22,532 nt of DNA, taken from a virus. Every line of letters starts with the position of its first letter. Positions within the stretch are counted from its first letter, which is position 1. The DNA lies in IMG/VR virus record IMGVR_UViG_3300032770_000094, positions 1-22,532 of that record; one strand, given 5' to 3'. Both the position numbers and the translations under genes were made by a program. Shown here piece by piece: positions 1 to 16,244 of the stretch. The notes below the pieces were generated by a model. The model had not been told where the DNA came from. It made no database searches and saw only the letters and a program-made list of their open reading frames with translations.

Positions 1-337
1 CGCCCAGGATGCCGGAAACTTCCGACACGAAGGGGTCGTAGGCCACATAGTCAATCTCATCCGTGTAGCCGATCCACGCGCCGTAGAAAACGGGCGTGGC
101 CGTGATCTGCGTGATGGAGGGAGCCGACTGCTCGCCGGGGGTGGTGCCCTCGGTCACGGCGGTCGTCACGGTGGAGAGGCTGTTGTACTTGCGCCACTCC
201 AGGCTGCCGAAGCGGGAAATCTTCGCCTGCACCCCGGCGCGGTTATGCACCAGGCGCGGAACGGCGCGCATCAGCAGACGACGCTCGTACATCGTCTTGA
301 CGCCCGCCGCAAAGGAACTAGTTGATACGTTTGCCAT
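1..337 (-). CDS. Major capsid protein, N4-gp56 family (N-terminal part, cut by window edge)
   Basis: This is the start of the protein that would form the capsid shell. I translated it by hand from the minus strand. The ATG is at 337-335 and the frame stays open to base 1, giving 112 residues. The N-terminus begins MANVSTSSFAAGVKTMYERR. Further in are a segment like FGSLEWRKYNSLSTVTTAVTEGTTP and then TQITATPVFYGAWIGYTDEID. This pattern (a basic helix, then 'TEG.TP', then 'I.AT...YG.wi..TD..D') is what I know from the N4-gp56 major capsid family. A Shine-Dalgarno GGAGAG lies at 345-350, about 7 nt upstream. An out-of-frame ATG at 344-342 reaches a stop after eight codons and is not the start. 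The gene follows the putative scaffold gene by 37 nt, and a palindromic motif sits in that gap. Scaffold-then-capsid order supports the call. The C-terminal part is outside the window. Confidence 0.85.
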   Translation of the reverse strand, partial: MANVSTSSFAAGVKTMYERRLLMRAVPRLVHNRAGVQAKISRFGSLEWRKYNSLSTVTTAVTEGTTPGEQSAPSITQITATPVFYGAWIGYTDEIDYVAYDPFVSEVSGILG

Positions 338-374: not shown

Positions 375-1118
375 CTACGCAGCGGGCGCGCTCTCCGGCG
401 GAATAGGGATCACGGACGGCGGAAGCTGCCCGTTCTCCACGGCTCGATAGAGTGCTTCTTGGTTGGGCAAACCGTACTGCTTCAACACTTCGGGAAACGT
501 CGCCGGAGCGGGAGGTGCGCCGGTTTGGGTCGCCACAGTGGGCGCGGGCACCACAGGCACGGTTGAAGCAGGGACCGTCTGCCCGCCAGCAGCCGGCGCT
601 GGATTGCCGGCGTCTTGGGCGGGGGCGGAGGCACCGCTTAGCTTCTCGCGGACGTAACCCCAGCCAGTTTCCAACAGCGTGTCCGGCGTGCTGCTGTCAA
701 GCCGCTCGCGGGGCACACCCAACTCGGCAAAGTAGTTCACCCACTGCTGGGTGATCGTTTGCGCCTGGAGCTGAGCTTGCAGTTGTTGGTTCTGAGCCTG
801 GAGTTCTTGGGCTTGCTGAGCAACGAGCTGCGCATCATAAGCGCGTCGTTGTTCGTCGGGAAGTCCGCGCGTCTGCGCCTCATACAGTTGGCGTTGAAGG
901 CCCGCCATCTGCGCCTGGACTTGCTGCTGATATTGCGCGAAGCGGCGGTCCTGTTCGGATTGCAGCTTGCGCAGATCAGCTTCCGGCACCATCCTCGGCT
1001 GGGCATTGTTCGGCGCGGGGCTGGGCGTCCCGGCAGGAACCCCAGCAGGCGCGGGCGTCCCTTGCGGAACCCCGCCCTGTGCCGCACCGGCAACCGGAGC
1101 GTTCGTTGGTAGAGACAT
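375..1118 (-). CDS. Putative capsid scaffolding protein
   Basis: This 247-residue protein probably guides assembly of the capsid and is then removed. The call rests on position and composition, not on a recognised domain. Residues 1-45 are Pro/Ala/Gly-rich and disordered. Residues 46-125 are a Gln-rich, strongly helical, coiled-coil-like stretch (for example QSEQDRRFAQYQQQVQAQ). Residues 126-165 look folded (WVNYFAELGVPRERL). Residues 165-205 are a Pro/Ala/Thr/Val linker. The last 40 residues form a short structured tail containing EVLKQYGLPNQEALYRAVEN. Scaffolds of tailed phages typically have this mix of helix and disorder and lie directly upstream of the capsid gene, as here. The start ATG is at 1118 with a GAGG about 9 nt upstream. 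It is transcribed from the promoter at 1198-1169. It could instead be a minor head protein. Confidence 0.6.
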   Translation of the reverse strand: MSLPTNAPVAGAAQGGVPQGTPAPAGVPAGTPSPAPNNAQPRMVPEADLRKLQSEQDRRFAQYQQQVQAQMAGLQRQLYEAQTRGLPDEQRRAYDAQLVAQQAQELQAQNQQLQAQLQAQTITQQWVNYFAELGVPRERLDSSTPDTLLETGWGYVREKLSGASAPAQDAGNPAPAAGGQTVPASTVPVVPAPTVATQTGAPPAPATFPEVLKQYGLPNQEALYRAVENGQLPPSVIPIPPESAPAA

Positions 1119-1198: not shown

Positions 1199-4100
1199 TT
1201 AGCCCACTGTCTCGATCACCGGATTGGCATTAGCCTGGGTGCCCGCGCCGCCAGCCGGCGTCGGCACGGCCTCGCGGTTGCCCTTCTGATCCTCGATGAT
1301 CGGCTGGAGGTACGTCTGGTACTGCGGGTTAGACAGCGCCAGGGATGATAGGAAATCGGTCAAGGGCTGGCTGGGCACCCCCGCCGCAAGCTGCTGGATA
1401 GCGGTCGTTCCCAGCGCGTCGGCCAGGCCCGGCGGCGGATGTCCATAGCGCGCCCACAGGTCGTCGGGCCAGTTGGGCGCGCCGCCCAGCTTGCCAGTCC
1501 CCAGCTTGGTGGCGTCCAGATAATCTAGGATTTCTCCCGCGCTGCGGCGAGCCATCGGGATGAAGTCGCGCCGGATGGCGGCGTTCATCTGGACCGAGGT
1601 CAGTGGCCTGGGTGCAGCGGCGGCGCGGGGCGCGGCGGATTTCCGGGTCGCCGTCGTGGCGCGGGTGGTGCGGGTGGTTGTCCCACCCGTCGTTGTCCCC
1701 GCGCCGCTGCTGCTGGGTGGAACCGGCAGGCCGGTGTTAGGGTCCACCAGGACTGCGCCGGAGGTAGCATAGGCCGAGGGGTTGAGGCCGAGTTTTTGGG
1801 CGATGTAGGTATCATAGTAGATGGCCCAATCCGGGTGCTGGGTCCCATAAGCATCTTTGGCGTCGTAGAACTTGGTGATGCGCGGATCGGCGGCGCGCAT
1901 GGCGGTGCGGGCGCTGGTGGAAGCCGCGCCATAGTCCGCGATCACATTGAGGATGTCGGGTCCGAACTGCGCCGTAGCCTGCTGCTGCCAGGCTTGGTTG
2001 AGGTTCTGAACTTGCAGCCAGCGGGTAAGCTGGTCGGTGGTGGGCGGGCCGAGTTTGAGAGCGGCGGCGGCCTGCTGCAACTGGCCGACGAAGGTAGCGA
2101 GCTTGGTGGGGTCCTTCCAGGCTCCGCCGGTGTCGTAGAACACGTCAATGTCACTGCGGCTGCCGCCGGCCTTGATGAAGGCGTTGATGAGGTTGGTCTG
2201 GCCCGCGCCGGGACCGGCCTCGTCCAAGATATCATAGGCTTGCTGCTGCAAGGCGGTGGTGTCGTCGGCGGGGCGTGTGCGATCCGAGATGCTCTCCTCG
2301 CCCTGAGACTGCGCGGCCTGCACCAACTGGTCGTAAGTGAACTTGCCCGCCGGGTAGTTATTCATCACCCAGGTCGCCAGTTCGTCGGGCGTGGGCGGGT
2401 TGGGATGAGCCTGGAGGAAGGTCTGCTCGGCCAGGGTGTAGTTGTAGCCGCTCTGGCCGTTCACGGCGTTCCAATACGGGTCCCAATAAGTTGTGCGCCA
2501 GGCGTTGTTGAGCGCATCCAGCGGCGTGTCGTTGGCCTTGTTCCAATCGTCGTAGCTCTGCGGGGTGGTGTTGGCTGTGAGCCACTGCACGATCTGGTTG
2601 GACTTCGCCAGCCCCGCTGTCTGTTCGGCGTTGGTGGGAGCTTGCAGCGCGTCGGAGTTGGCCTGGTCCGCGAAGGACTTGGACAACGATTGCACGATCT
2701 GCGGGAAGCTATCGCGCCAGTTCTGCACCGCCGCCTGCCAATCGGTGTATGACTGCCCGTTGGCCTGATCCCACTGCGGCTGGGTGGCGCGGATCATTTG
2801 ATACCACTGGTCGGTGTAGTGCTGGGCCAGCAGTGGGTCGGGCTTGATGCTTTGGGTCCAGGGGCGCTGCGCGTCGGCGTAGGCCGGGCTGTTCTCGATC
2901 TGCTGGCGCTGGTTGAAGTACCAGTCCCACACGGCGCTGGTGACGGTCGGATCGCCCCCAACCGGCAGGGCGCGCAGGCGGGCGTTGAGCTGGTCGCTGA
3001 GCGCCGACAGCGCGGAGTAGTAGCTGGAGGTGTCCTGGTCCTGGGTGATGGACTGGCTGATGAGGTCGCGCCGCTGCTGGCCGTAGACCGGCACACCCTG
3101 CGGCGTCTGCGTGAAGCGGATGTCGTTGTAGAGCGTGACCAAGTAACCGTCCGGGGTGTTATAGCGCCGGTCGGTATAGGCGTTATAGCGCGCGGCGCTG
3201 TCGCCGGGCACGTCGAACAGGGCGGCGTTGGTTTCGCTGTTGATGCTGTCGCGCAGTTGGTTGACTTGATCGCGCAGCGCCGCCAGTTCCGCCGCGCCCT
3301 CGCTGTACTGCTGCGGGAACACGCCGGTAAAGAACCCGGCCAGATCACGCCCGTACTCCTGGTTCTGCACGCTGCGCAGGGCCACATCGTAGGCCGGGTT
3401 GCCTTCGCGCTGGGTGAGCGCATCCCGCGCGTCGGTCGCCAGCGACATCTTCTGGTCAGGCGTCAGGTTGGGATTGTGCATCTGGTCGAGGGCGTTGCGC
3501 AGCACCTCGCGCTCGACCAAGTAATCCTGCCAGGGCGGGGTCGGGTTGATGTAGTTGTACCAGAAGTCCTTGATGCCGGGCGAGGCCGCCCGCGACAGCT
3601 TCTCCATCACATCGCTCTCGACCCACGGCGGCACCAGTTGCAGCTCCGGCACCAGCGAAAACGACGGCAGGCGGTTGGTGTCAGCCACGTCCAGCGCGCG
3701 GGCCGGGATTGTCACCCAGGGCGGCAGGTAGAAACCCAGGTCGCGGCCCATCTGGTCCAGATAGGTATAGGTCTGCTGGAGCGGGGTCTGCGCCTCGTCC
3801 ACATCGTTATAGGCTTGCGAGGCGCGCGGCAGCGCGTAGCGGAAGCGCAGCATCGAGGTTGGGTTGAACCAGACATTGGTTCCCGGCAGCGGAAAGTAAC
3901 CTTCCAGCGATGGCAGTTGATGGCCGTCCGAGGTGGTCGCCCCGGCGGCATATGACACGCGCTGTGATGTTTCAACCAGCTTGGCATAGGCCGCCGGCAG
4001 CCAGGGATGGCTCGCCATGTATTCAAGGTAGAACGGAATGCTGCGGCTGGGCATCATCCAGAACGGGAAGATGGTGCGCATGATCTGGTCGAAGTTCGTT

Positions 4101-7100
4101 TGATGCTGATAGTTCAGCATGAACTTGTTGGTGTGCGGCAGCGCGCCCTCGATCCCGCTGGCGGGGTTGCCGTTGGTGGCCTGGTCCAGCAGGCTGTACT
4201 TGGCTTTGGCCGCCTGGTCGGCCCAGGTAGCGAACGTGCCGCGCTGCTGATCGGTCAGTTGGGTCGCCATCGGATCGCCGGAGTTGGCCTTGTCCAACAG
4301 CCAGTCGCGCCAGTAGTGCAGGGTATCGGTGGCGGCGTCGGCCTGCGCCTGGATATTCTCAGCCCGGCCCAGCCAGGTCTTGATCTCATCCGGCAGTTGC
4401 CAGTACGGGATCATCACCGGGAACTGCGCCGCCAACTGCTGCTCGCGGGCCGAAAGCTGCTCCGGCAAGAGCGCCTGGTTGGCCTGCATCGCCTGCGCCC
4501 CGAACGAACGCGCCTCCTGTTGGATGTACTGGAGCGCCGAGGTCAGATCGTCGGCGCGCGGGCCGTAGTTGGTTTTGAGCCGGTCAATCGCATCAGAGAT
4601 GTAGCTGTCGAAGCCGGCCTGGGTCTTGGTCGCCTGCGCCGGCCAGACCTCTCGCAGTGAGCGCCCATCTGGATAGCGCGGCGCGGCGGCCCAGGCATCC
4701 CAGGCGCGGGCCAGTTCCGCCTCGATGTCGTTCTGCTGCTTCTGCGCCAGCCAGGCCCCGGCGTCCGAGATACCGTTGACGGACTGGAACTTGGCGGTGG
4801 CGTCATCGAGGATCGCCTGCGGCGCGTTGATCTTGGACAAGATGTAGGGATTGGGCGGATTGTAGGGCGTGCCGTGCGTGAGTTCGCCCGCCGCGTATTC
4901 GTACATCCGGCTGACCAACGCGCGGGTTTCGGGGTCCATCGGCGCATCCGGCGCGCGGAACATCTCATTTTCGAGGAGCTTGTTGAGGACCACGCGCGGG
5001 TTGTCCCATTCCGGCGCGCCCGCGATCACGTCCGACCAATGCGGGTATTCGCGCAGCAGATCGGAATAGAAGTCGCCCTCGGTCCCGACCGACCGAAGCT
5101 CCTGCTGCATCCAGCGAAAGGTATCCTTGAAGGCGGTGTGGATGAGCGGATCGGTGTCGGTGCGCAACAAACCCAGCGCGCGGGCCGGAGCGATCTCGGT
5201 GAAAGTCTTGGGGTCGTCGGTCGCGCCCAGGGCCTTGTCGAACACCGCCCGGATCGAGGGGTTGATGTTGACCCCATCGAAGTAGGCGGCCATGTTGGCG
5301 TACACCCGGCCCATGTAGTCGCGCAGGTAATTCATCGTCGGGGCCAGTTCCGGCGTGGGCGGCAGGCCGTCCCGAACGTATTGCTCGGCGGCCTTGGCAA
5401 ACTTTTCCTTTTCCGCTACCCCCCACTCGGCCAGCGGTTTGCCCATCCAGTCTGAGACCGCCTGCACGCTTTCGGGCGGCAGTTGCGTTTCGAGGATGTG
5501 GCCCAGGACTTCATGCGGGATGGCGCTCAGGTTGGCCCCGGAGAAGAAGTGCAGCCAGGCTCGCCCATCATCGAGGAACTGCACTGCCGCCCGTACCTGG
5601 CCGCGCGTCTGGAACAGCGGCATCCCTTGTAGGGCGCTGGTTTTCATCGCATCGTTGATTGGTAGATAATGGAAAGTTTGATAGGTCGGCTCGATGCGAC
5701 TGCTTTCCACAATCGGCAGATGGGCATACTCGCTGCCCGGCGTCTGGTGCAGCAGATCGGCGTGGGCGGCGGCTTCCTGAAAGGTGTCGTAAGGCTCACT
5801 GACCGGCTCATACATATCGGGCCGGTTATACTTGGCGAAGCCCGGCTCATCTGTCCAGTAGCGGTTGAGGTCGTCCTGGGTTTGCAGGTATTGGTCGCCA
5901 GAGGTACGCACCTCGCGCAACAAGCTGTCGGCATCGGTGCGATCTTCAGGCGGCACGAAGCCCAGCGCGTATTCCAGGTAGCTCAGCCCGTTCTGACGGT
6001 TGCGGCCCGGCTCCGGCTCCAGACCCAGCGCCTCATCCGCCATCGAGCCGATACTATCGGGGTCGAGCGGCTGGCCGTTGTCGGCGCGCACATGCGCGCC
6101 TATCCAATCTACCAGCTTGCTGCGGGTGGCGGCCACCTGATCCTGTGCGGTTTGCGCTGCTTGTTCCAGCTCGCCGCGAATGTCGTCCACAGTCGCGCGG
6201 AACACCTGATAGGTCGCCACCGACTGCCCGCCGGTCTGGAGCGGCAGATCGCTCACGCTCACCCCGAACGGCTTGCCCATCCGGCCAGCGATAGACGAGA
6301 TTTTCTTATCGTAGGCTTCGCCCATGCCCAGCCCGCCGACCTGCATGTTGTCGCCCAGGATGGTGTCGCTGGAGGCCCCGGCGCGAATACGATCCTTGAT
6401 CGCGTCGGTTATGTCTTGACCAACATACTCATGCAGCCTGCCCAGCGGGGTGGAGGTGTTCAGAGTGCTCTTGCCGAGTTTGCTGCCCTTGAGCGTGACG
6501 CTGGCGGCGTCCATATCCTTGAACGCGCTGGGATACTGTTCTTCCAGATCGGCCAGGGAGAGGCGGCCTTGCAAATAGTCCATCACCAATGAGTTCTGAG
6601 TGTTGGACCCGACCGGAGGCAGCACGGTGCCTTGCGGCACAGACCAATCCAACTGGTCAACATAGTGGGCCAAGCTGTAGCGATTTGATTGAGTTGCCCC
6701 GGTCGTCCAGGCCAGCCCATCATAACCGCCATCCTCCGCCGCCTTGCGCAGCATATAGTTCAGCGCCAGCTTGTTATAGCTGTCCGCCCACGGCGTTGGC
6801 GGAGCCATCAGGTAAGAGGCCGCCTGGGCTTTCTCCAAGATTGGAACCAGCGCCTCACGCCGGCCCGCCGCGATGTCGGCGGGGTTCTTGCCAGCCGCCT
6901 CGGCCAACTGCTGGAGCGCCTGGATGCGCTGCACGACCTCCGGGGTGTAAAAGCCCTGGTCGCGCCCGCGCTGGGCCAGGTCGGATTGAATTTCCTCAAT
7001 CGCCAGGATGCGCCGACCATCGGTGTCCAGACGATCTTTGTAGCGGATATGCACCGCGATGGGGTTGCGGCTCTTGATGTCCCGGCCGTGAAAATCGGAG

Positions 7101-10100
7101 AACTGACGATACTTATTCTCCAGCTCATCCGCTCCGCTCTCCTGCGCCGCCTTAGTAGCGGCGTAGGTGCGCTGGTTGGCCGCCGCGAACGCCTGGTCGT
7201 CATCGGCTGACAACGGCGGAACGGAGTTACGCTGATCGAAGTCCATGCCCGATGGTCGCCAGTAGGTGCCATCGGAGGCGCGCCAGCCCTGCGGATACTT
7301 CTCCGACAGTTCTTCGTACAGGCTGTCGTAAGCCTCATAAGCGGAGGTCAGCTCTTGCTGCTGCGGCGACTTGGGGGCCTTGAACAGCAGCAGCGCCTCG
7401 CGGTAATTGGTCCCACCGGGCGAGGTGCGGTCGCTCCACAGCGTCGGCTGCTGGTTGTGCATGTACTGCGAGGCCGAATAGCGGGCGCGGCCATCGGCGT
7501 TGATGTCCTCCCAGGTCTGAGCGTCATCCCCCCAGCGTTCCGGGTTGGGTGAGCCATACTTGGCGGCCATCGCATCGCGGAAATCCTGGCGCAGTTGGCC
7601 GACCTCATCATAGTCAAAGACCGGATGAGGGTCCGCCGCATAAGCGCGCAGCTCTGCCGCCGACCCGGCGTGCTGGGCTTCCTGCGGCGTGGCAAACGGG
7701 ATGGAGGAATGATCCCGGCTGTTGACCAGGAACCAATCGTCGTCACGCCCGATGCGGACCTGGTAGTGCGCGCCGTCGTAGCCGACAGCGGTGAGATCGT
7801 CGCCACCCAGCGACACCCAATTCAAGGGGATGGGTTCGGGCTTAGGGCCTTTCTCGCCCAGCACCATCGGGATGAGTTCGGGGGTGTTCTGGTCGAGGTG
7901 ATCGAGAAGCTCCTGCTGCGTGACCTTGCCCCCAGAGCGCGCGGCCAGATAGCTGTCCAGGCCGGTAGCCGCGAGTTCTTCCTGGCTGACCTGCCCGCGC
8001 AAAAAGTTCTGCACGGCCTCGACCGGCTGGGTCTTGGCCGAACGCATCTTCTGCTGGATCAGCCGGCGTGATTTCAGATACCAGCTACTCGCCGGGTCGC
8101 TTTCGCTTTGGGCAAAGAACTGGCTGTGCGACAGGAACTCGTTGGTGCTGTCGAGATGGCGCTGGAGCTGCGCCACGCGGGCGGCATCGCCATCCGCCGA
8201 AGCTTCGGCCAGATCAGAGATCAGGCTGTTGCGGTAGGACTGGAGCCGGCTGAACTCGCCGGGGCTGAGGCTGTCGGGGCTGCCGCTAACTGCGCCCGGA
8301 GGTGGGCCTGAAACCACCCGCTCAATCTGGCCTTGTCCTCGGGTGTAAATGGCTCGCCCGCTTTCGCCTTCGCCCGGAACCAGTTGGGCAAAGGCAGCAC
8401 CATCCTGCTGGGCCGCCGTCCGGCCTGGTTCGGTGTCGAGGTAGAGAGGTTGTCCGTTGGTGTAGTCATAGATACTCGCTTGTCCAGAAGTGATGCCCTG
8501 CTGGATGGCACTGTACTCGTCGGGCACGTTGCGTGAAACGTTCAACACCACGTCGGCCTCGCCCCCGGCGTGATCCCAGGTGATGTAGCTATCATCCCGC
8601 AATAGCTCCGGCAGGTGCTCGGTGGCATAGTCGGCCAGCAGATCACCTTGCCGCTGTGGATCGGCAAAGAACTGCGCTGCCGGGATCACGCGGGTCGCTG
8701 CCGGAGCGTTCACACCAAAGCCGGTCGGAGCTGCCTGCTCCTGCACCGGGTTGAACGAGCCGGAGCCGCCCGGAGTGATCGAGGGAAACGGCTTCATGTC
8801 CACGTCCTGCACCAGTTGCTCGCTGGCCTGGGTCAGCGCGCCTTCGGGCAGTTCGTGGATGCCGCGCGGGTAGCGGGTCATCCCGGCGAACGTTTCCTTA
8901 TACCAGTCCTGCCCCGGATGCAGGTTTTCCCACGCGCCGGCCAGCGCATCGAGGAAATGCTGGTCGGCTTGGGCCGCGTCGGTGTTGAGGTGCAGGTTGG
9001 TCTTGAGCCACTCCAGCAGCTTGTCGCGCTGGATGTCGCCGGTGTAGTTGACCGGGGTGCGCGTGCCCTTCGGCGCGGGCGTGCCCGCCGAAGTTAGCCT
9101 AACTACCGGCGTGTCCGCCGAGATCGGCTTGGGCACATCCACCGGCGCGCGCACGGCGTTGATGTAGCCTTTGGCGGTCGTCTCCAACTCGTCCAGCGGC
9201 ATCGCAATCGCCTTGTCCGCCGTCAGACCATCCGGCAGCCCGCGCGGGAACAGAGGCCGGAGCAGGTTGCTCTCCAGGCCGAGGATCGTGATCGGGTTGG
9301 TATACACCCGGTCGGAGGTGCCGTTCGGGCCGGGCATCGTGATGCGCGCGATGTGGCCGCCGGCATCGTAATCGAGCTTCATGCCGCTGCGGGTCAGCAT
9401 CTCGTCCAGGGAAGGCATCGTGATGGTTTCCCCGCGCAAGGTCGCTCGCTGGAGTTCCTGGGTCCAGTCCGCCACCGCCTGGTAGTTCTGCGCCCGCAGC
9501 TCATCGAAGTAGTCCCAGGCGGAGCGGCGCGCCTTGCCGGTGTTGTGGAGCGGATCGGGAGCGAAGTCCAGCCACCAGTTGTGCAGCCAGCCTTGCGCGG
9601 CGTCCATCGTGCGCATGGCCTCGTTGCCGTTGGTCCAGGCTTCGTTGGTGACGGTGCCGGCGTCCAGCGCTTCGCGCATCATACGGGAGAAGGTGGCGCG
9701 TGAGGCCGCCTGGTTCTGGCCGGCGGCCTGCACGGCGGGGGCGGTCTGGTAGACGCGGCTGCCGATGCGGTCGTTGAGAATTTTGGTGTAGTCAATCGGG
9801 CCGAGGCGGTAGCCCTCGTCGGACACGTCCTTGACGATGGAGCGGTAGTCAGGCAGCGGCGTGCCCAGCAGCCCCCGGAAGGTAGCGTACACCTCCGGGT
9901 TGCGGTCGAGGGTTGTGGCGATGGCCTCGGCCAGCTTGGGGTTGGCGCGCTGCACCGCCGCTGGATCGGATAAGAATTGCTGCACGCGCACAGCCAGGGA
10001 AGCCGGGTCGCCAAACATCGCCAGGTCCGGACCGCCAAGCTGGGCGGCCAACCGGCTGACGCCATCGTACAGGCGCACGCGCGCATCGCTGGGAGATAGC

Positions 10101-13100
10101 TTTGCCAGGGCTTCCGCATCGTACTCCAGCAGTGGTTTGCCGGCTGCATCCAATCCGACCCGCACCATCTCCGGGCCGAGGCCGGCAGCCGGCTGCACCG
10201 TCGCCACCCCATCCAGTATGCCCTTGACGGCCCCGGTGATGGCATCGGTGTTTTTGCCAGACAGGGCTTTGGCCTGCGCCGCCATCGCCAGGGTCTTGTC
10301 CGCCGCTGCCTGAGCCGCCGCCTCGGCTGCTGGAGCCGTGGCGCTGGGCGCGCGGGCAGCCGCCGACACGGCGTAGTCTTGCAGTTGGCGCTCGATGTCG
10401 CCAAAGACCGTGCGGATCGTCACGTCGTCCAGCGGACGCATGGCCTGCGTGTTGCGCAGTTGGGTCAAGACGTGGTTCATAAACAGCGAGCGGTCGGAGG
10501 GCGTCATCGCTCCGACGTGGCCCATGATGTCGGGCGGCACCAGCCGGGTGTACTTGGCTCCCATGCCCGCCGCCTGGCCCAAGAACTCTTGGGTTAGCTG
10601 CTGAAAGCGATCCGGGTCCTTGCCGGCCTCGTTCCACAGCGACATCGCAATCGGGTAAAGCTTGGGGTCGCCGGCCACCAGCTTCATGGTGTCGGGCAGC
10701 AGGTTTTGCTCCAGCCCGTCGTAGGTTGAATTGAGGACCTCATGGAACATGCGCGCCCGCAGGTTGAAGGATACCGCCTGGTTCCAATCCGACCAGCCCC
10801 CGATCCAGGCTTTCCAGGCATCCCGCGCGGCCTTGATCGCGCCCTTGCCGGTGTCGGCCACTGGCGGCAGTGGATCACCCGCCAGCTTGTCCATCAGCGG
10901 CGCGCCGTCCGCCAGACCCGCGCTGGCCGAGGCCGCCAGGTCTAGCAGGCCATTGGTAGCCGGATTGCGCAGCGCGTTCCAGCGGTCAGTGATGGTTGTG
11001 AGCGGTCCCCAGGTCGGACGCCAGCCAGCCAGCAGCCGATCCGCCACCGTGCCGGTCGCGCCCATCTGCCGATTGAGGAGCGACTGCGCCAGGTCCGCCG
11101 GCAGAAGCATGTCCATGTCCTGCGCTTTGGCGAAGTCGGTGGTCAGGATCGAACCCAGGTCATCGAACAGGTGCCCACCGCCGATCATGTATTGAAACAG
11201 CGCGTTGACGTTGCGCGTCACCGATGAGCCTGGCCGGGCCAGCGAGGTGGCCGCCATCCAGTTGTTGGTCAGCCAGTCGGCCATCCCGTTCACCATCTGA
11301 ATGCCCGGCTTGGCCTGTTCCAGCACGCCCAGCTTGCGCGCGATCAGCGCCAGCAGGTCGTCATCGGAAAGCGCCGTGCCAGGGATGATGTGCGCCGCGC
11401 GATAAGCGTCCGCGAACTGCCCCGCCAACTGCGGCACGATAGACTTGGGATTGGACACCAGACGCTCGACGGCATCGTTTACCTGGGAGGTGACGAACTC
11501 GGTCTTGGCGTTGAGCGCCGCCAGCCGGGCAGCCTCCAACGCATCGGCGGCGGCGGGAGCCGCTTCTGATGCGCTGGAGGCCGCAGCGGCTCCCGCCGCC
11601 CGCAGCGCATCTACCACATCCTGGGGCGTCATGCTGCCGGTAATTTTGACGCCATTCTCCCCCGCGATGCGCTCCAGGTTCTTGGTAATCATCGCAGGCA
11701 TTCCCCCTGCGTCTACCTTAGCTAGAAATTCCTGGGCTTCCTGGGTCAAGCCGGGCGCGGCCTGGGCGGCACCCGCTGTTGAGGCCGATTGGGTCGCGGA
11801 TGACAACACACTGTCGTAGACTGCCTGAGCTTGCGGCGAGGCGTTCCAGGCACGCCGGTAAGCCGCGCTGGCTTGCTGGCGCAGATTGTTGGTGGCGTCA
11901 TCGGCCAGCTTGCTCCACTGATCGCCGCCGTTCACCACGTTGCGCATACTCTTGAGCACTTGATTTTCGCGCTCGCCAATCGAGGCCGCATCCAGTACTC
12001 CGCCGTCACCCGCCGTTTTGAGCATGTCGTTGAAGCTGTCCATGTCAGTGGCGGCGTTCGCCAACCGCCCCAGGGTGTCGGAGGCGGTCGCCGCCAGCCG
12101 GGCCGCCGCTGAGCGGTTGGTTTCTTGCAGCAGGTAGCGGGCGAAGTCGCCCACGACCGGCAGCGTGGAGGCGAAGTTGCCAAACTTGGTCGCCAGGGTA
12201 GCCCTAACCTGGCCCTGCGCCATGACGTTGCCGAGAGCCTGGAGCGCGCCGTCGCCGCCCAGGATGGTTGAGTTCGCCAGCTTGTTGCCGATAAACTTGC
12301 TGGCATCGCCCAGCAGTTCGCCCGGCTTTTCATACAGCCCCAGGATGTTGAACAGGTCCAGGGCCACCTCACCCGGCAGCTCCTCCCACGGATCAACGAA
12401 GTGGTCCTTGATGGAGTTGATCTCGTAGCTGTCGAGCGGAGCGCGCTTCTCCATCTCGGCCTCGACCAGCGCCGCCCGGAAAGCGTCACGCCGGGCCGGG
12501 TCCACATCGAAGGTGTAGGCGAAGGTCGGATCGCCCCAGCCGGCAGCTTTCTGAGTTTCGAGCTGCGCCTGAGAGATGAGACTTTTGGCCTGATCGAGGT
12601 CGGCCTGCGGGATCGTTCCAGGGGTGGCGAGGATGGCATATGCCGCGCGGCGGTTGTCCTGAGCCATCCCGTTCAACCCGCGACTGTCAGCCACGATCTT
12701 GTCGTAAGCAGCGTCCCAGCGGTTGTTATCAATAACCGTCTGGAGATCGGGCGGCATCCCCTGGCGCAACTGGCCGGTGGCTGGGTCAATCGAGAAACCA
12801 TAGACGTTGTTCTGGATGCCAGGCGGAGCCATGTTGTCGCGGATCGCCCGCACCCGCGCCACGCTGTTGTTGAGCGCGGCGTGGGCGTTGTCCTCTAGCG
12901 CCTGGCGGGTGGCGACGGAGGTCAGCACGTCTTGCGGCAGCAGCCCGGAGGCCGCCAGGGCGTTGGTGATGCCGAGATGGTCTGGCGCGTTGAGCGCCTG
13001 AATGCCCTTGTAGGTCGCTGCCGCGAAAACGGTGCGACCCAGCGCGCCCGATAGCGGTCCCCACTTAGCCGCCCACTGGAGCGTGTCGCTGATCGGCGCG

Positions 13101-13579
13101 GGCAGGTTGGGGTTGCCGATGATCTCTTTGGGGATATTCATGCCCAGCCCCAGGACCTTGAAAAGCTGATCGGTCCATGAGGGTCCGTTGGTATCCGCCG
13201 GGATGTTCTGCACCTGCTGATCGGGGGCGGCGAAAGGGTTGTGTATCTGGTAGGTGGTTGGCGGCGCGAAGGGCGAGGCCGGATGCTGGGTCAGGAAATC
13301 CGAAAGCTGCGCGCTGGGTCCGAACATCCCCTGCGGTTTGGACTGCTGCTGATCGGAGCCAGCGGTGGGATCGGTCGGAGGGTTCGCGCCAGGGATGGGC
13401 GTGCCCTCCGGCGCGGGCGAGGTGTTTACCGTCTGCGGCGTCCAGGGCGTGGTATCACTCGGCAGCGACTTGCCGCCCACGCCGAAAGTTCCAGAAGATG
13501 CAACCGGCCCAACCCCGGAGGGTTGGGCCTTATTGAACTCTTGCTGGAACTCCGGCGTTTCCCAAAAGTTTCCGGCCAT
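1199..13579 (-). CDS. Giant phage polyvalent-type protein (4,126 residues)
   Basis: This is a single open frame of 12.4 kb. Regions in order: residues 1-130 are Pro/Gln-rich and disordered; 130-760 are largely helical; around 774-800 is an ARPGSSVTRN segment seen in phage internal proteins; 1490-1500 is a linker; 1826-2435 is the long module with AIEEIQSD (2193-2200) and WTTG (from 2291); 2653-2760 is a zincin-like segment with HEVLGH (2689-2694); around 3171 is FPFWMMPSRSIPFYLEY; about 3950-3985 is a Thr/Arg/Ala low-complexity linker; the tail is helical. From memory, this domain mix belongs to the large polyvalent proteins of phages and conjugative elements, many of which are thought to be packaged and injected with DNA. 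Placement between portal and capsid genes fits a virion component. The ATG at 13579 has no clear Shine-Dalgarno; a palindromic motif abuts it. No RNA polymerase motif was seen. Confidence 0.8.
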   Translation of the reverse strand: MAGNFWETPEFQQEFNKAQPSGVGPVASSGTFGVGGKSLPSDTTPWTPQTVNTSPAPEGTPIPGANPPTDPTAGSDQQQSKPQGMFGPSAQLSDFLTQHPASPFAPPTTYQIHNPFAAPDQQVQNIPADTNGPSWTDQLFKVLGLGMNIPKEIIGNPNLPAPISDTLQWAAKWGPLSGALGRTVFAAATYKGIQALNAPDHLGITNALAASGLLPQDVLTSVATRQALEDNAHAALNNSVARVRAIRDNMAPPGIQNNVYGFSIDPATGQLRQGMPPDLQTVIDNNRWDAAYDKIVADSRGLNGMAQDNRRAAYAILATPGTIPQADLDQAKSLISQAQLETQKAAGWGDPTFAYTFDVDPARRDAFRAALVEAEMEKRAPLDSYEINSIKDHFVDPWEELPGEVALDLFNILGLYEKPGELLGDASKFIGNKLANSTILGGDGALQALGNVMAQGQVRATLATKFGNFASTLPVVGDFARYLLQETNRSAAARLAATASDTLGRLANAATDMDSFNDMLKTAGDGGVLDAASIGERENQVLKSMRNVVNGGDQWSKLADDATNNLRQQASAAYRRAWNASPQAQAVYDSVLSSATQSASTAGAAQAAPGLTQEAQEFLAKVDAGGMPAMITKNLERIAGENGVKITGSMTPQDVVDALRAAGAAAASSASEAAPAAADALEAARLAALNAKTEFVTSQVNDAVERLVSNPKSIVPQLAGQFADAYRAAHIIPGTALSDDDLLALIARKLGVLEQAKPGIQMVNGMADWLTNNWMAATSLARPGSSVTRNVNALFQYMIGGGHLFDDLGSILTTDFAKAQDMDMLLPADLAQSLLNRQMGATGTVADRLLAGWRPTWGPLTTITDRWNALRNPATNGLLDLAASASAGLADGAPLMDKLAGDPLPPVADTGKGAIKAARDAWKAWIGGWSDWNQAVSFNLRARMFHEVLNSTYDGLEQNLLPDTMKLVAGDPKLYPIAMSLWNEAGKDPDRFQQLTQEFLGQAAGMGAKYTRLVPPDIMGHVGAMTPSDRSLFMNHVLTQLRNTQAMRPLDDVTIRTVFGDIERQLQDYAVSAAARAPSATAPAAEAAAQAAADKTLAMAAQAKALSGKNTDAITGAVKGILDGVATVQPAAGLGPEMVRVGLDAAGKPLLEYDAEALAKLSPSDARVRLYDGVSRLAAQLGGPDLAMFGDPASLAVRVQQFLSDPAAVQRANPKLAEAIATTLDRNPEVYATFRGLLGTPLPDYRSIVKDVSDEGYRLGPIDYTKILNDRIGSRVYQTAPAVQAAGQNQAASRATFSRMMREALDAGTVTNEAWTNGNEAMRTMDAAQGWLHNWWLDFAPDPLHNTGKARRSAWDYFDELRAQNYQAVADWTQELQRATLRGETITMPSLDEMLTRSGMKLDYDAGGHIARITMPGPNGTSDRVYTNPITILGLESNLLRPLFPRGLPDGLTADKAIAMPLDELETTAKGYINAVRAPVDVPKPISADTPVVRLTSAGTPAPKGTRTPVNYTGDIQRDKLLEWLKTNLHLNTDAAQADQHFLDALAGAWENLHPGQDWYKETFAGMTRYPRGIHELPEGALTQASEQLVQDVDMKPFPSITPGGSGSFNPVQEQAAPTGFGVNAPAATRVIPAAQFFADPQRQGDLLADYATEHLPELLRDDSYITWDHAGGEADVVLNVSRNVPDEYSAIQQGITSGQASIYDYTNGQPLYLDTEPGRTAAQQDGAAFAQLVPGEGESGRAIYTRGQGQIERVVSGPPPGAVSGSPDSLSPGEFSRLQSYRNSLISDLAEASADGDAARVAQLQRHLDSTNEFLSHSQFFAQSESDPASSWYLKSRRLIQQKMRSAKTQPVEAVQNFLRGQVSQEELAATGLDSYLAARSGGKVTQQELLDHLDQNTPELIPMVLGEKGPKPEPIPLNWVSLGGDDLTAVGYDGAHYQVRIGRDDDWFLVNSRDHSSIPFATPQEAQHAGSAAELRAYAADPHPVFDYDEVGQLRQDFRDAMAAKYGSPNPERWGDDAQTWEDINADGRARYSASQYMHNQQPTLWSDRTSPGGTNYREALLLFKAPKSPQQQELTSAYEAYDSLYEELSEKYPQGWRASDGTYWRPSGMDFDQRNSVPPLSADDDQAFAAANQRTYAATKAAQESGADELENKYRQFSDFHGRDIKSRNPIAVHIRYKDRLDTDGRRILAIEEIQSDLAQRGRDQGFYTPEVVQRIQALQQLAEAAGKNPADIAAGRREALVPILEKAQAASYLMAPPTPWADSYNKLALNYMLRKAAEDGGYDGLAWTTGATQSNRYSLAHYVDQLDWSVPQGTVLPPVGSNTQNSLVMDYLQGRLSLADLEEQYPSAFKDMDAASVTLKGSKLGKSTLNTSTPLGRLHEYVGQDITDAIKDRIRAGASSDTILGDNMQVGGLGMGEAYDKKISSIAGRMGKPFGVSVSDLPLQTGGQSVATYQVFRATVDDIRGELEQAAQTAQDQVAATRSKLVDWIGAHVRADNGQPLDPDSIGSMADEALGLEPEPGRNRQNGLSYLEYALGFVPPEDRTDADSLLREVRTSGDQYLQTQDDLNRYWTDEPGFAKYNRPDMYEPVSEPYDTFQEAAAHADLLHQTPGSEYAHLPIVESSRIEPTYQTFHYLPINDAMKTSALQGMPLFQTRGQVRAAVQFLDDGRAWLHFFSGANLSAIPHEVLGHILETQLPPESVQAVSDWMGKPLAEWGVAEKEKFAKAAEQYVRDGLPPTPELAPTMNYLRDYMGRVYANMAAYFDGVNINPSIRAVFDKALGATDDPKTFTEIAPARALGLLRTDTDPLIHTAFKDTFRWMQQELRSVGTEGDFYSDLLREYPHWSDVIAGAPEWDNPRVVLNKLLENEMFRAPDAPMDPETRALVSRMYEYAAGELTHGTPYNPPNPYILSKINAPQAILDDATAKFQSVNGISDAGAWLAQKQQNDIEAELARAWDAWAAAPRYPDGRSLREVWPAQATKTQAGFDSYISDAIDRLKTNYGPRADDLTSALQYIQQEARSFGAQAMQANQALLPEQLSAREQQLAAQFPVMIPYWQLPDEIKTWLGRAENIQAQADAATDTLHYWRDWLLDKANSGDPMATQLTDQQRGTFATWADQAAKAKYSLLDQATNGNPASGIEGALPHTNKFMLNYQHQTNFDQIMRTIFPFWMMPSRSIPFYLEYMASHPWLPAAYAKLVETSQRVSYAAGATTSDGHQLPSLEGYFPLPGTNVWFNPTSMLRFRYALPRASQAYNDVDEAQTPLQQTYTYLDQMGRDLGFYLPPWVTIPARALDVADTNRLPSFSLVPELQLVPPWVESDVMEKLSRAASPGIKDFWYNYINPTPPWQDYLVEREVLRNALDQMHNPNLTPDQKMSLATDARDALTQREGNPAYDVALRSVQNQEYGRDLAGFFTGVFPQQYSEGAAELAALRDQVNQLRDSINSETNAALFDVPGDSAARYNAYTDRRYNTPDGYLVTLYNDIRFTQTPQGVPVYGQQRRDLISQSITQDQDTSSYYSALSALSDQLNARLRALPVGGDPTVTSAVWDWYFNQRQQIENSPAYADAQRPWTQSIKPDPLLAQHYTDQWYQMIRATQPQWDQANGQSYTDWQAAVQNWRDSFPQIVQSLSKSFADQANSDALQAPTNAEQTAGLAKSNQIVQWLTANTTPQSYDDWNKANDTPLDALNNAWRTTYWDPYWNAVNGQSGYNYTLAEQTFLQAHPNPPTPDELATWVMNNYPAGKFTYDQLVQAAQSQGEESISDRTRPADDTTALQQQAYDILDEAGPGAGQTNLINAFIKAGGSRSDIDVFYDTGGAWKDPTKLATFVGQLQQAAAALKLGPPTTDQLTRWLQVQNLNQAWQQQATAQFGPDILNVIADYGAASTSARTAMRAADPRITKFYDAKDAYGTQHPDWAIYYDTYIAQKLGLNPSAYATSGAVLVDPNTGLPVPPSSSGAGTTTGGTTTRTTRATTATRKSAAPRAAAAPRPLTSVQMNAAIRRDFIPMARRSAGEILDYLDATKLGTGKLGGAPNWPDDLWARYGHPPPGLADALGTTAIQQLAAGVPSQPLTDFLSSLALSNPQYQTYLQPIIEDQKGNREAVPTPAGGAGTQANANPVIETVG
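5300..5617 (-). other. Zincin-like segment within the giant protein
   Basis: Residues about 2655-2760 contain AVQFLDDGRAWLHFFSGANL followed by SAIPHEVLGHILE. In related phage polyvalent proteins the equivalent segment ends in a classical zinc-metallopeptidase HExxH such as HELGH. Here the codons read H-E-V-L-G-H, so the two histidines are one residue further apart. Peptidase activity is therefore uncertain. Confidence 0.5.
6275..8104 (-). other. EIQSD module within the giant protein (residues about 1826-2435)
   Basis: The order of motifs is: SWYLKSRRLIQQKM and EELAATGLDSYL, with an ELLDHL helix; then GGTNYREALLLF; then HIRYKDRLDTDGRRILAIEE running into the IQSD motif; then ALNYMLRKAAEDGGYDGLAW and TTGATQSNRY; finally GGLGMGEAYDKKISSIAGRM. 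I recognise this series as a recurrent module of large proteins in proteobacterial prophages. I do not know a demonstrated activity for it. The boundaries are approximate. Confidence 0.6.
9091..9105. promoter_or_regulatory. Palindromic motif, copy 2 (inside the giant gene)
   Basis: The plus-strand sequence is AAGTTAGCCTAACTA. The inner 13 nt (9092-9104) is a perfect palindrome around its central base. It falls in a linker of the giant protein near residue 1492 and is read as V-V-R-L-T. The codons GTA, GTT, CTA and ACT end in A or T, unlike the G/C-ending codons around them. Confidence 0.55.
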
Positions 13580-13594
13580 AAGTTCGCCTAACTT
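13580..13594. promoter_or_regulatory. Palindromic motif, copy 3 (start of the giant gene)
   Basis: The plus-strand sequence is AAGTTCGCCTAACTT, the exact reverse complement of the core of copy 1. It abuts the ATG of the giant gene at 13579 and contains the stop codon of the 79-residue gene (13590-13588). It occupies the place where a Shine-Dalgarno would be expected, so a bound protein or an RNA hairpin here could affect translation of the giant gene. Confidence 0.6.
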
Positions 13595-13827
13595 TCAACT
13601 GTCTGAGGCTTGGGCTTGCGCCCGCGCCGAGGCTTTTCCTCTACGACTTCCGGCTCCGGTTCCGGCTCAGGGTTCGGCAGCGCCTCGCGCCGCACCAGCA
13701 CGATGTAGTGCCCGGTGACGTTGATATGAAAGCCCAGCACGTCCCAGGCTTCGCCCATCAACTGCTCCAGCCGGGCATTGGCCTGGATCAGGTTGGTGCC
13801 AAGATCAAGCAACTTCGTTTCAAACAT
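13588..13827 (-). CDS. Small protein with AT-hook-like tail (79 residues)
   Basis: I do not recognise this family. Residues 1-50 look folded (an amphipathic helix LIQANARLEQLMGEAWDVL, then strands with INVTGHYIVLV). Residues 50-62 are an acidic-proline stretch (NPEPEPEPEVVEE). The tail carries PRRGRKPKP, which resembles the R-G-R-P core of an AT-hook that binds the minor groove of AT-rich DNA. The ATG at 13827 has a good AGGAG about 8 nt upstream. The stop overlaps palindromic copy 3, directly before the giant gene, so the two are probably co-transcribed. A possible divergent promoter lies upstream (TTGACG, 17-nt spacer, GGTAAT), overlapping the promoter of the HNH gene. A DNA-binding regulator and a small virion protein are both possible; neither is shown. 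Confidence 0.65.
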   Translation of the reverse strand: MFETKLLDLGTNLIQANARLEQLMGEAWDVLGFHINVTGHYIVLVRREALPNPEPEPEPEVVEEKPRRGRKPKPQTVES

Positions 13828-13852
13828 TCAAGCAGCTCCTAACTGTGGCTAA

Positions 13853-13881
13853 TTGACAATTACCCCAACTCAGGGAATAAT
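13853..13881 (+). promoter_or_regulatory. Near-consensus sigma70 promoter of the HNH gene, leaderless
   Basis: A perfect -35 TTGACA lies at 13853-13858. A spacer of exactly 17 nt follows, then a -10 AATAAT at 13876-13881 (five of six). The expected transcription start, about 7 nt after the -10, is at 13887-13888, which is the A of the ATG. There is no Shine-Dalgarno at proper spacing. The -35 lies within the palindrome AATTGACAATT (13851-13861), which could be an operator. Confidence 0.7.
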
Positions 13882-13887
13882 CGTCAA

Positions 13888-14388
13888 ATGGCTAATTATT
13901 CCAGCATCATACCCCGACTAACCAAAGCGCAGATCAAAACCTTCTGGTCGCATGTGGACATCCGAGGCGAGGATGACTGCTGGCCGCTCAAACGCAGAAA
14001 CGGCCAGCCATTCACCACCAAGTATCGCCTTATCTGCATCGGGAATAAAATCCTCAAAGCCCATCGGGTTGCCTGGTCAATCGCCAACCATAAACAACCT
14101 GGAAAGCGAGAGGTACTCCACTCCTGCGACAACCCACCTTGCTGCAATCCAAAACATCTGTCGCGCGGCACCCATGCGGAGAACATGGCTGATATGGCCT
14201 CACGTCGCCGCTCCGCGCGGGGCGTCCAGCATGGGATGTCTAAACTAAATGAAGCCGATGTACGAGAGATACGCCGGTTGATTAGCGAGAAGAAACTGTC
14301 GCAAAGAGACATCGCTATCCGCTTCGATGTGCGCCAATCAGCTATCTCTAAGATTGCTCTAAACCAACGCTGGAGCCACATTCACTAG
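13888..14388 (+). CDS. HNH homing-type endonuclease with C-terminal helix-turn-helix
   Basis: This 166-residue protein is a predicted DNA-cutting enzyme of the phage HNH type. The N-terminus has DDCW (29-32), a feature of these enzymes. KAHRVAW is at 57-63. The core VLHSCDNPPCCNPKHLSRGT (77 onward) supplies H78, N87 and H90 as the HNH residues, with Cys80, 85 and 86 as possible zinc ligands. Residues 113-166 (KLNEADVREIRRLI, then QRDIAIRFDVRQSAISKI) are a helix-turn-helix DNA-binding end. It is the only plus-strand gene in a minus-strand late operon. Its GC is about 50% in hand-counted rows, against the mid-60s around it, which suggests recent transfer. Its stop overlaps the stop of the convergent neighbour in one CTAG. 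It is probably a free-standing homing endonuclease; its target site is unknown. Confidence 0.88.
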   Translation: MANYSSIIPRLTKAQIKTFWSHVDIRGEDDCWPLKRRNGQPFTTKYRLICIGNKILKAHRVAWSIANHKQPGKREVLHSCDNPPCCNPKHLSRGTHAENMADMASRRRSARGVQHGMSKLNEADVREIRRLISEKKLSQRDIAIRFDVRQSAISKIALNQRWSHIH

Positions 14389-15383
14389 CCTCCCAGCCAG
14401 GGATTAGGACGCTCGAACTGCCACTGCCCATTGGACTGCTTGGTGGCATCGCGCGCCGGCCCCAGGCCAGTGAACGGATTGATAAGCGCCTCCGCCGCCG
14501 GCCCGTAAGCCGACAGCAGGCCGGTGGTGCCCTGCGACTGCGCCAGGATCGGATCGAGCGCAGCTTGCTCCGCCAGGTATTGCCCGCGCGTCTGGTCGCT
14601 GTTGCCCGCGCCGCCGTATTGCTGCATCACCGAGGCGATGTCCTTGAGGTACTGGTAGCCCGGCCCGAAGTCCTGCGCGCTCTTGCCCATGCCCTTCGCC
14701 ATGCTGTTGAGCGTGTCGAGGATGCCCTGCGCCCGATTGGCGGTGAAGTATTGATACTGCACCGTGGGCGCGCCCTCGACTGGCGGCAGCGGCGCGGCGG
14801 GGGTGCTGCTCAAGGAATAGTCGCCCGGCTGCCCCACTGTGGCGGTCGGCTTGCCGCCCGCGAAGGGGTTATTGACCGAGGGATCGGTGGTGGATAGCTG
14901 CGACAGGTTTTCGGCTGCCGTGCGCTGATCCTCCGGCGACATATACGGAACGAGCGCGTTGACGATGGTCGCATACTCCGTAAGCGGGTTGAGGCGGTCA
15001 GGGGTCAGGCCCTTCCACCAGCTTGGCGCGCCCGGCACGGAATAGGTCGGCTTCCATTGAGTGCGGTAAGCGGCGGTCAGCGAGCTATAGTCTGGACCGT
15101 TAGGCGCGGGCGGCGTGGCTGCGCCGCCCGCGCCACCACCTCCGCCGCCGGTCTGGCCCCAGGTGCCCAGGTCGTTCAACGGGTAGGTGTACTCACGGTT
15201 GCCCTTCATGTCGGGATTGCCGCGCGGCTGACCCGCGTAGGAAGTGTCCGCGCCCTGCGCCACGGCATGAGCCTGGATATAGTCAAGGATGCCCTGCGTG
15301 CCGGCGTCAGGCACCTGCTGGCCCTGCTGGGGCTTGGACTTTTCCTTGAGCGGCTTGGGCGGCGGAGGCGGCCAGGTGCTCAT
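14385..15383 (-). CDS. Putative virion protein with VPDAGTQG repeat (332 residues)
   Basis: No known domain is recognised. The first 20 residues are Pro/Lys-rich. Residues 21-41 carry the peptide QQVPDAGTQGI and an AH helix end, which also occurs twice in the preceding gene. A Gly-rich linker follows (around 78-90). Then comes a Trp/Tyr-rich stretch (AAYRTQWKPTYSVPGAPSWW) and helical segments to the C-terminus, which ends NPWLGG. The ATG at 15383 has a strong GGAGGT 7 nt upstream and lies 3 nt from the stop of the LysM gene, so the two are translationally linked. The shared repeat and adjacency suggest that the two products work together, perhaps as neck, tail or head-fibre-like components. 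The function is unknown. Confidence 0.7.
   Translation of the reverse strand: MSTWPPPPPKPLKEKSKPQQGQQVPDAGTQGILDYIQAHAVAQGADTSYAGQPRGNPDMKGNREYTYPLNDLGTWGQTGGGGGGAGGAATPPAPNGPDYSSLTAAYRTQWKPTYSVPGAPSWWKGLTPDRLNPLTEYATIVNALVPYMSPEDQRTAAENLSQLSTTDPSVNNPFAGGKPTATVGQPGDYSLSSTPAAPLPPVEGAPTVQYQYFTANRAQGILDTLNSMAKGMGKSAQDFGPGYQYLKDIASVMQQYGGAGNSDQTRGQYLAEQAALDPILAQSQGTTGLLSAYGPAAEALINPFTGLGPARDATKQSNGQWQFERPNPWLGG
15261..15323 (-). repeat. VPDAGTQG peptide repeat, copy 3
   Basis: Residues 21-41 of the 332-residue protein. This copy is highly similar to copy 1 (15807-15869) at the DNA level as well as in protein, which suggests recent duplication or recombination between the two genes. Confidence 0.7.
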
Positions 15384-15386
15384 AAA

Positions 15387-16244
15387 CTACCTCCGAGGTG
15401 TTTGCTGGTACAGCCAGTTGGTACCGGGCGGAGGCGGAGGTGGCGCGCCGCCCCCACCGCCAAGATACGGCTCGTAGATCGAGCCGGGCATCGCCGTGCT
15501 GGGCATCCCGCTCATGGCCGCCACGTCCCACGGCTGAAACCCCTGGCGCGCGTGCTGGGCAGGCCGCAGCATCAGCGAGGTCGCCAGGGCAATCGGGTCC
15601 GTTCCGTTTACGGTCGGGGAAGCGTTGCCGGGGGCCATCGGGCCTTGCTGGATGCCGCCCGGCATGATGCCCGACAGGCCGGTGGGGTCCGCGCCATGCG
15701 CGATCAGGTATTGAGCTACGCCCTGAGTTTCGGCGTCGGGCACCGCTTGCTGAGACATGCCGGTGGTGTTGAAGCCGCCGGTGGGAATATCGTTGGGCTG
15801 GCCGCCGACACCATGCGCCTGGAGATAGCCCTGGATACCCTGCGTGCCGGCGTCGGGCACTTGCTGGCCCGGCCCGCCTGGGCTGACAGCGCGCCCGTTG
15901 CCGTTGCCACCGCGCCCGCCGCCAACCGTGTTGGATGTGCCGCCACCACCCCCACCGCCACCCGCCGCGCCGCCTCCACCGTTGGTCGGCGTAGCGCCCC
16001 GGCTGCCGCTCCACAGGTTGCCGCCATTGGGGAAGGGCGTGTTCTTGAGCGCGCCGATGATGCTGTTGAGGGTGGCCTGGTCCACCGCGCCGGGCTTATC
16101 CGGCACGTTGAGCACCTGGCCGGGATGCAGCATCAGGCCGCCAGGGTTAGCCTGGATCAGCGCGCCGAGTTGCCTCTGGTCGCCCATGTACTGGCCGGCG
16201 ATGGAGGCCCAGCTATCTCCCGGTTGAACAACGACTTGTGCCAT
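15387..16244 (-). CDS. LysM-domain protein with Gly-rich linker and VPDAGTQG repeats
   Basis: This 285-residue protein probably binds peptidoglycan as a virion component. Residues 4-48 form a LysM domain: VQPGDSWASIAGQYMG, then LGALIQANPG, then LHPGQVLNVP, matching the usual 'GD.l..IA..y', 'L...N' and 'l.pGq.l.iP' pattern. Residues 85-125 are a long Gly-rich linker. Two copies of the VPDAGTQG repeat follow (126-146 and 164-185). The C-terminus has a Gly/Pro tract (PYLGGGGGAPPPPPPG). No hydrolase domain is present, so this is not a complete lysin. The ATG is at 16244. The 3-nt gap to the small upstream gene and 3-nt gap to the downstream gene indicate co-transcription. A weak version of the palindromic motif abuts the start. 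Confidence 0.75.
   Translation of the reverse strand: MAQVVVQPGDSWASIAGQYMGDQRQLGALIQANPGGLMLHPGQVLNVPDKPGAVDQATLNSIIGALKNTPFPNGGNLWSGSRGATPTNGGGGAAGGGGGGGGTSNTVGGGRGGNGNGRAVSPGGPGQQVPDAGTQGIQGYLQAHGVGGQPNDIPTGGFNTTGMSQQAVPDAETQGVAQYLIAHGADPTGLSGIMPGGIQQGPMAPGNASPTVNGTDPIALATSLMLRPAQHARQGFQPWDVAAMSGMPSTAMPGSIYEPYLGGGGGAPPPPPPGTNWLYQQTPRR
15690..15755 (-). repeat. VPDAGTQG peptide repeat, copy 2 (divergent)
   Basis: Residues 164-185 of the LysM protein read with the core AVPDAETQGVAQYLIAHG. It keeps the VPDA, TQG, Y and AH positions of the other copies and differs elsewhere. Confidence 0.6.
15807..15869 (-). repeat. VPDAGTQG peptide repeat, copy 1
   Basis: Residues 126-146 of the LysM protein, with the core QQVPDAGTQGIQGYLQAHG. 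It is nearly the same as copy 3 in the next gene. Confidence 0.7.

Follow-up and report, generated by a model that had tools for sequence, protein, structure and literature searches.

A giant phage protein with two conserved arms and a variable cargo slot: a probable virion polyvalent protein

The DNA analysed here (the window) is an IMG/VR stretch of 22,532 bases. In a preliminary description it was said to contain a single 4,126-residue gene filling 55% of its length and located between portal and capsid genes, which proved accurate: one open minus-strand frame runs from 13579 to 1199 (54.9% of the window), flanked by a portal match and an N4-gp56-type capsid gene.

1199..13579, minus strand: whole giant ORF P0001, 4,126 aa, ATG start

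Within this interval the other five frames contain 35-150 stops, about 110 being the chance expectation for a frame of this size at the local G+C, whereas the P0001 frame contains the terminal stop only. GC3 remains between 0.76 and 0.91 from one end of the ORF to the other, and a chance or antisense ORF was ruled out as a reading of P0001. Longer proteins of this sort exist: one family member has 4,251 aa and, among the matches listed, an EIQSD-bearing ORF reaches 5,408 aa.

The genes are arranged on the same strand in the order DNA methyltransferase, intein-containing terminase, portal, LysM protein, Pro-rich protein, giant, scaffold-like protein and N4-gp56-type capsid protein.

18376..20691, minus strand: terminase large subunit, carries an intein
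16480..18375, minus strand: portal protein (E 1.5e-4; 41% identity to the relatives' portal-position genes)
15387..16244, minus strand: LysM-bearing Gly-rich protein
14385..15383, minus strand: Pro-rich protein, at the same position in relatives
375..1118, minus strand: scaffold-like coiled protein
2..337, minus strand: N4-gp56-type major capsid protein (MCP), cut by the contig end

The methyltransferase gene upstream of the packaging genes (21278-22366, minus strand) is of the N6/N4 type and has a GTG start. The terminase intein consists of 251 residues (158-408; window positions 19468-20220, minus strand) and includes a LAGLIDADG endonuclease; the closest known inteins (41%) belong to mycobacteriophage terminases, for example those of LRRHood and Alice, and the 49% identical terminases of L007-L010 have no intein. 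The motif VPDAxTQGxxxYxxAHG, which might be a binding motif, is repeated in the adjacent Pro-rich and LysM genes, and direct DNA repeats are located at 15266-15327, 15721-15743 and 15812-15873. The 805 bases upstream of the giant (13580-14384) contain no convincing gene, the ORFs on both strands having a GC3 of 0.61 compared to about 0.82 elsewhere, and a promoter-like plus-strand site near the consensus, TTGACA-17-AATAAT, is found at 13853-13881. A search for structured RNAs and tRNAs found none, and no related prophage was found in the genome contigs.

Neither the portal nor the full-length protein gave any relatives in exact-peptide searches of viral and genome contigs; the relatives were reached via terminase and capsid searches and later via arm-C profiles (the arms are defined below). 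At least 13 other uncultured phages possess complete single giant ORFs of 2,515-4,251 aa with the C-terminal arm in common, the arm-C homologues being represented by 14 other giants and one cut giant. All the family members come from metagenomic contigs, several of which were recovered in more than one assembly, and the portal, the Pro-rich gene, the giant, the scaffold and the MCP follow each other in the same order in most of the relatives' contigs.

L016/L031: giant of 4,251 aa
L132: giant of 3,849 aa
L116: giant of 3,725 aa
L118: giant of 3,470 aa
L032: giant of 3,316 aa
L121: giant of 3,264 aa
L133: giant of 2,935 aa
L139: giant of 2,934 aa
L024/L030: giant of 2,846 aa
L115: giant of 2,835 aa
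L130: giant of 2,764 aa
L140: giant of 2,567 aa
L129: giant of 2,515 aa

Two long segments of P0001, hereafter the carrier arms, are conserved among these proteins, and a short motif is located near the N-terminus.

9305..12604, minus strand: carrier arm N, residues 326-1425
1283..4933, minus strand: carrier arm C, residues 2883-4099, predicted largely as alpha-helix
13547..13567, minus strand: FWETPEF motif, residues 5-11

With an HMM built from the relatives only, P0001 being left out, arm N was matched at residues 332-1418 (E 2e-72) and arm C at 2905-4096 (E 1e-285), and with more relatives in the HMMs the matches span 326-511 (E 1e-27) and 694-1425 (E 1e-56) for arm N and 2941-4096 for arm C, in which a Gly/Thr-rich linker precedes the last 100 or so residues. 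Neither arm has a match in Pfam, PHROG or PDB. The predicted model of arm C (residues 2900-3990) is all-helical with a pLDDT of 60 and has no fold match in the structural libraries searched; given this low confidence and the lack of a fold match, the carrier role is assigned to the arms on the basis of their conservation and position. A motif of the FW-x3-[EKGQD]-F type occurs within the first ~140 residues in 10 of the 15 family members and is missing from the other five, and the original pattern has two matches in a background of 118,845 aa. It was derived from eight sequences, and its relaxed pattern was seen in two of the six members found later, so it is to be regarded as common and not universal; FW-x3-EF near the N-terminus may be an addressing signal.

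The region between the arms is referred to here as the cargo slot.

4934..9304, minus strand: cargo slot, residues 1426-2882 (the sister protein L024 lacks it)
8135..9304, minus strand: part of the slot without a recognised relative, residues 1426-1815
5588..8134, minus strand: EIQSD module, residues 1816-2664 (E 1.7e-67 with a profile made from solo EIQSD proteins)
6980..6994, minus strand: EIQSD signature, residues 2196-2200
5207..5623, minus strand: zincin-like metallopeptidase segment, residues 2653-2791 (E 5.8e-19; PHROG 9880, E 1.4e-10)
5498..5515, minus strand: HEVLGH (HEXXXH) zinc-binding motif, residues 2689-2694

The EIQSD module, the zincin-like segment and the long helical regions had all been named in the preliminary description, and each was recovered, the helices being those predicted for arm C. 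Its suggestion of a polyvalent protein agrees with the domain repertoire, with the modular make-up of the relatives and with a location beside virion genes. The accompanying idea that the anonymous length would mostly carry new effectors found no support: the conserved two-arm carrier accounts for roughly two thirds of the protein, and effector-like content is limited to the slot of about 1,460 residues. For the first ~390 of these (1426-1815), the collections searched contained no relative. GC3 is lower in the slot (0.789) than in the arms (0.842; p 5e-5).

The EIQSD module, interrupted in P0001 by a lineage-specific insert at about 2458-2631, is among the commonest anonymous phage modules, at least 512 viral contigs having a copy. 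Among the matches listed, seven of the 80 EIQSD ORFs (305-5,408 aa) also have a recognisable zincin, and PHROG 7348 matches the EIQSD region of the relative L028. A 2,387-aa protein of the Dolichospermum phage Dfl-JY45 (L004 9469-16632) carries four ART-PolyVal stretches and two EIQSD modules. The model of residues 2031-2830, predicted from 48 sequences with a pLDDT of 73, is closest to AtaT (6gts; Z 8.8, rmsd 4.1, 121 residues aligned), a value to be considered middling as helical matches from other families reach Z 8.3. Nearly all the structures matched over the beta-sheet part are GNATs (the bacterial toxins AtaT, KacT and TacT2, which are acetyltransferases, then NatD, Gcn5 and Naa50). Foldseek returned nothing below E 0.001 for this model in the PDB, and in the viral library it was matched by phage proteins named polyvalent or ART-PolyVal. 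At the sequence level no GNAT match was obtained for the 48 members in Pfam or for the EIQSD profile in the PDB, and the acetyl-CoA signature [QR]xxGx[GA] after beta-4 is not matched, a conserved QxGRxxG being found at the expected place. A GNAT-like fold can be offered as a tentative lead from the predicted model, with about an even chance of being right.

The zincin segment belongs to the polyvalent type with its zinc-ligand histidines intact and with Glu 2725/2732 downstream of HEVLGH; HEXXXH is a zincin variant noted by Iyer et al. 2017 (PMC5512222). The EIQSD module and the zincin could also be structural instead of enzymatic; a zincin copy in the relatives L016 and L028 has lost the histidine motif.

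The distance between the arms is 19 aa in L024 and 89 in L115, 281-990 aa in L129, L130, L032, L118, L116, L139, L140 and L133, and 1,155-1,685 aa in L016, L121, P0001 and L132, the error in these borders amounting to some tens of residues and being larger for the most diverged proteins, in which arm N was only partly matched. The slot of L132 contains an EIQSD module and a HEMSH zincin, a pair similar to that of P0001. Other slots possess PBECR5 (L016, E 1.7e-14), ART-PolyVal (L032, E 8e-9) or ART-PolyVal (E 6e-17) together with GGDEF (E 8e-12) and a HELGH zincin (L116); PBECR5 (E 3e-21) and ART are found in the cargo of L119, and a HELGH zincin lies just upstream of arm C in L118. Degenerate zincins without HExxH follow arm N in L115, L116, L118, L016 and L028. 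Residues 2263-2365 of L016 match PHROG 14016 and resemble a methyltransferase-type domain in the cargo. The slot contents of the relatives are classic polyvalent domains, and the combination of conserved arms with an interchangeable, sometimes empty cargo slot is newly delimited here from sequence comparison.

Exchange of the cargo can be followed in close relatives. In the flanking DNA, L119 and G003 are 96.9% identical on one side of the cassette and 91.8% on the other (further along, L119 and the sister record G002 share 95-97% DNA identity), and between these flanks there are 1,728 bases in G003 and 18 in L119. The difference of 1,710 bp, or 570 codons, is in frame and corresponds to the EIQSD module. 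Compared over L119 1-657, L119 and L028 differ by a clean in-frame EIQSD cassette, a natural presence/absence pair in near-identical phages. In the arm-C tree the sister of P0001 is the empty L024 (100/97), followed by L132 (99/99), and L115, which is likewise empty, belongs to another well-supported clade. Arm C of P0001 matches that of L132 with an E value of 6e-172, and the EIQSD module of P0001 is closer to those of unrelated phages (E ~1e-26), chosen as its best matches, than to that of L132 (E 1e-11). The empty slot of L024 is compatible with gain followed by loss and with separate gains alike. The tripeptide LFQ at module borders was tried as a processing or recombination site and rejected, with 7 occurrences in slots compared to 2.8 expected and 69 in EIQSD ORFs compared to 71.6; its position at the borders is explained as the end of EIQSD/ART-type modules.

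In the relatives both long ends are kept, while the enzymes between them are exchanged, missing or substituted, which gives the protein the look of a delivery arm whose payload can be changed. P0001 is probably a polyvalent protein in the virion of a podovirus-like phage, consisting of a carrier and an exchangeable payload, and we infer for it virion presence, ejection, proteolysis, acetyl transfer and a host target in the following way. The two long, presumably helical arms (326-1425 and 2883-4099) would do the packaging, threading and delivery, and effector modules would be recombined in frame into the slot between them; the cargo of P0001 would be the EIQSD module, probably acyltransferase-like by its predicted fold, followed by the HEXXXH zincin just before arm C. 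During head assembly the protein would take its place beside the portal, perhaps by means of the FW-x3-EF motif, and it would later be ejected with the DNA domain by domain as "beads on a string", as proposed for the N4 virion RNA polymerase (vRNAP). In the host cell the zincin would release the payload or cut a host protein, and the EIQSD enzyme would modify a host target or protect the incoming DNA. A bolder reading, plausible to us but at somewhat less than even chances, is that the family is a general protein-delivery device, i.e., an N4-vRNAP-like ejection carrier with a swappable slot at the position of the polymerase, the EIQSD module being a GNAT-like acyltransferase effector.

The alternative that survives best, though we consider it rather unlikely, is a self-processing polyprotein, the chain being cut by the zincin during head assembly so that the arms and the cargo become separate virion proteins and the giant chain is never delivered whole. 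P1 DdrB provides a precedent, being cleaved before packaging (PMC5512222), and the location of zincins with intact motifs just before arm C in P0001 (HEVLGH, at the border with the cargo), L116, L118 and L132 agrees with it. However, no active zincin was detected in most members (L024, L032, L115, L121, L129, L130, L133, L139, L140), so cleavage is not essential for the carrier; LFQ, the candidate cleavage motif, is not enriched, and the N4 vRNAP, according to that paper, carries a zincin domain and yet is packaged unprocessed.

Less probable still is an inner-head structural or core protein, a portal-associated body staying in the capsid with the cargo domains as decoration. The constant position between the portal and the scaffold/MCP genes agrees with it, as does the existence of empty-slot members, in which the arms must serve some purpose without cargo; the repeated origin of the cargo from host-acting enzyme classes (ART, PBECR nuclease, GGDEF) would nevertheless be odd if the protein remained in the head throughout.

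It is very improbable that P0001 is a divergent relative of the N4 vRNAP with a hidden polymerase domain. N4 gp50 consists of a helical N-terminal domain (1-907), the polymerase (998-2103), the zincin-like C1 (2124-2375) and the 1,125-residue helical C2 (2376-3500), and for its passage through the tail a "beads on a string" mode has been proposed (PMC12633501). Its layout is paralleled by a ~1,000-residue, putatively helical N-terminal domain, an enzyme region, a zincin and a helical C-terminal domain of ~1,100-1,200 residues, the order fitting for EIQSD, zincin and helical arm C, which is the modelled arm. Each is a single chain (~3,500-4,100 residues in the two), and an N4-gp56-type capsid gene lies near P0001. 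However, the middle of P0001 is EIQSD and zincin, both absent in L024; the N-terminal domain of the N4 protein has a membrane-spanning helix, and a hydropathy scan of ten P0001-family members found none; the N4 vRNAP gene is downstream of the MCP, and that of P0001 is between the portal and the MCP. Comparison of both arms with gp50 gave nothing in hmmsearch and hhalign (probability below 1%) and E above 1 in BLASTP, and no RNA polymerase domain was matched anywhere in the chain by sequence profiles (Pfam, PHROGs, NCBIfam, PDB), though a relative at the level of the fold is conceivable. As the sequence comparison is negative, the likeness to gp50 is one of working alike and not of membership. 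An assembly fusion of several separate genes, named earlier as the reading that would overturn the description, would account for the unusual length only and can practically be dismissed, since complete single-ORF homologues of 2,515-4,251 aa span the same borders in contigs from independent assemblies, most of which also agree in the neighbouring genes, and reading frame, GC3 and strand are uniform.

If the preferred reading of a carrier with an exchangeable payload is right, giant injected phage proteins would, as far as we know, have their carrier and payload told apart for the first time. Nature supplies carriers that are empty (2,846 and 2,835 aa), swapped cargo, and two near-identical phages that differ in a single cassette. 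With these it could be tested which part directs the giant protein into the virion, whether it is the payload that acts on the host, and by what means a chain of more than 400 kDa gets through the phage tail. The predicted fold would also be the first structural lead for EIQSD, a module absent from Pfam.

Of the systems with known behaviour, P1 DdrB/DarB are packaged, zincin-bearing, multidomain and delivered with the DNA, as described in PMC5512222; P0001 is likewise zincin-bearing and multidomain, its domains differ from theirs, and the sequences were compared through family libraries only. PHROG 9880 (zincin segment) and PHROG 7348 (EIQSD region) do not cover the arms. The assignment of P0001 to the polyvalent proteins as defined by Iyer et al. 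2017 is well supported. Like the proteins that they treat, it combines at least two biochemically disparate domains (EIQSD and zincin) in one polypeptide and is encoded beside the late/virion genes of a terminase-portal phage; zincin (including the HEXXXH type), ART, PBECR and GGDEF occur in the P0001 family too, and solo versions of the cargo exist. The portion of their paper considered here does not describe the conserved arms, the EIQSD module or the empty slot, and it presents free accretion of domains, whereas here two arms common to at least 14 phages bracket one variable slot.
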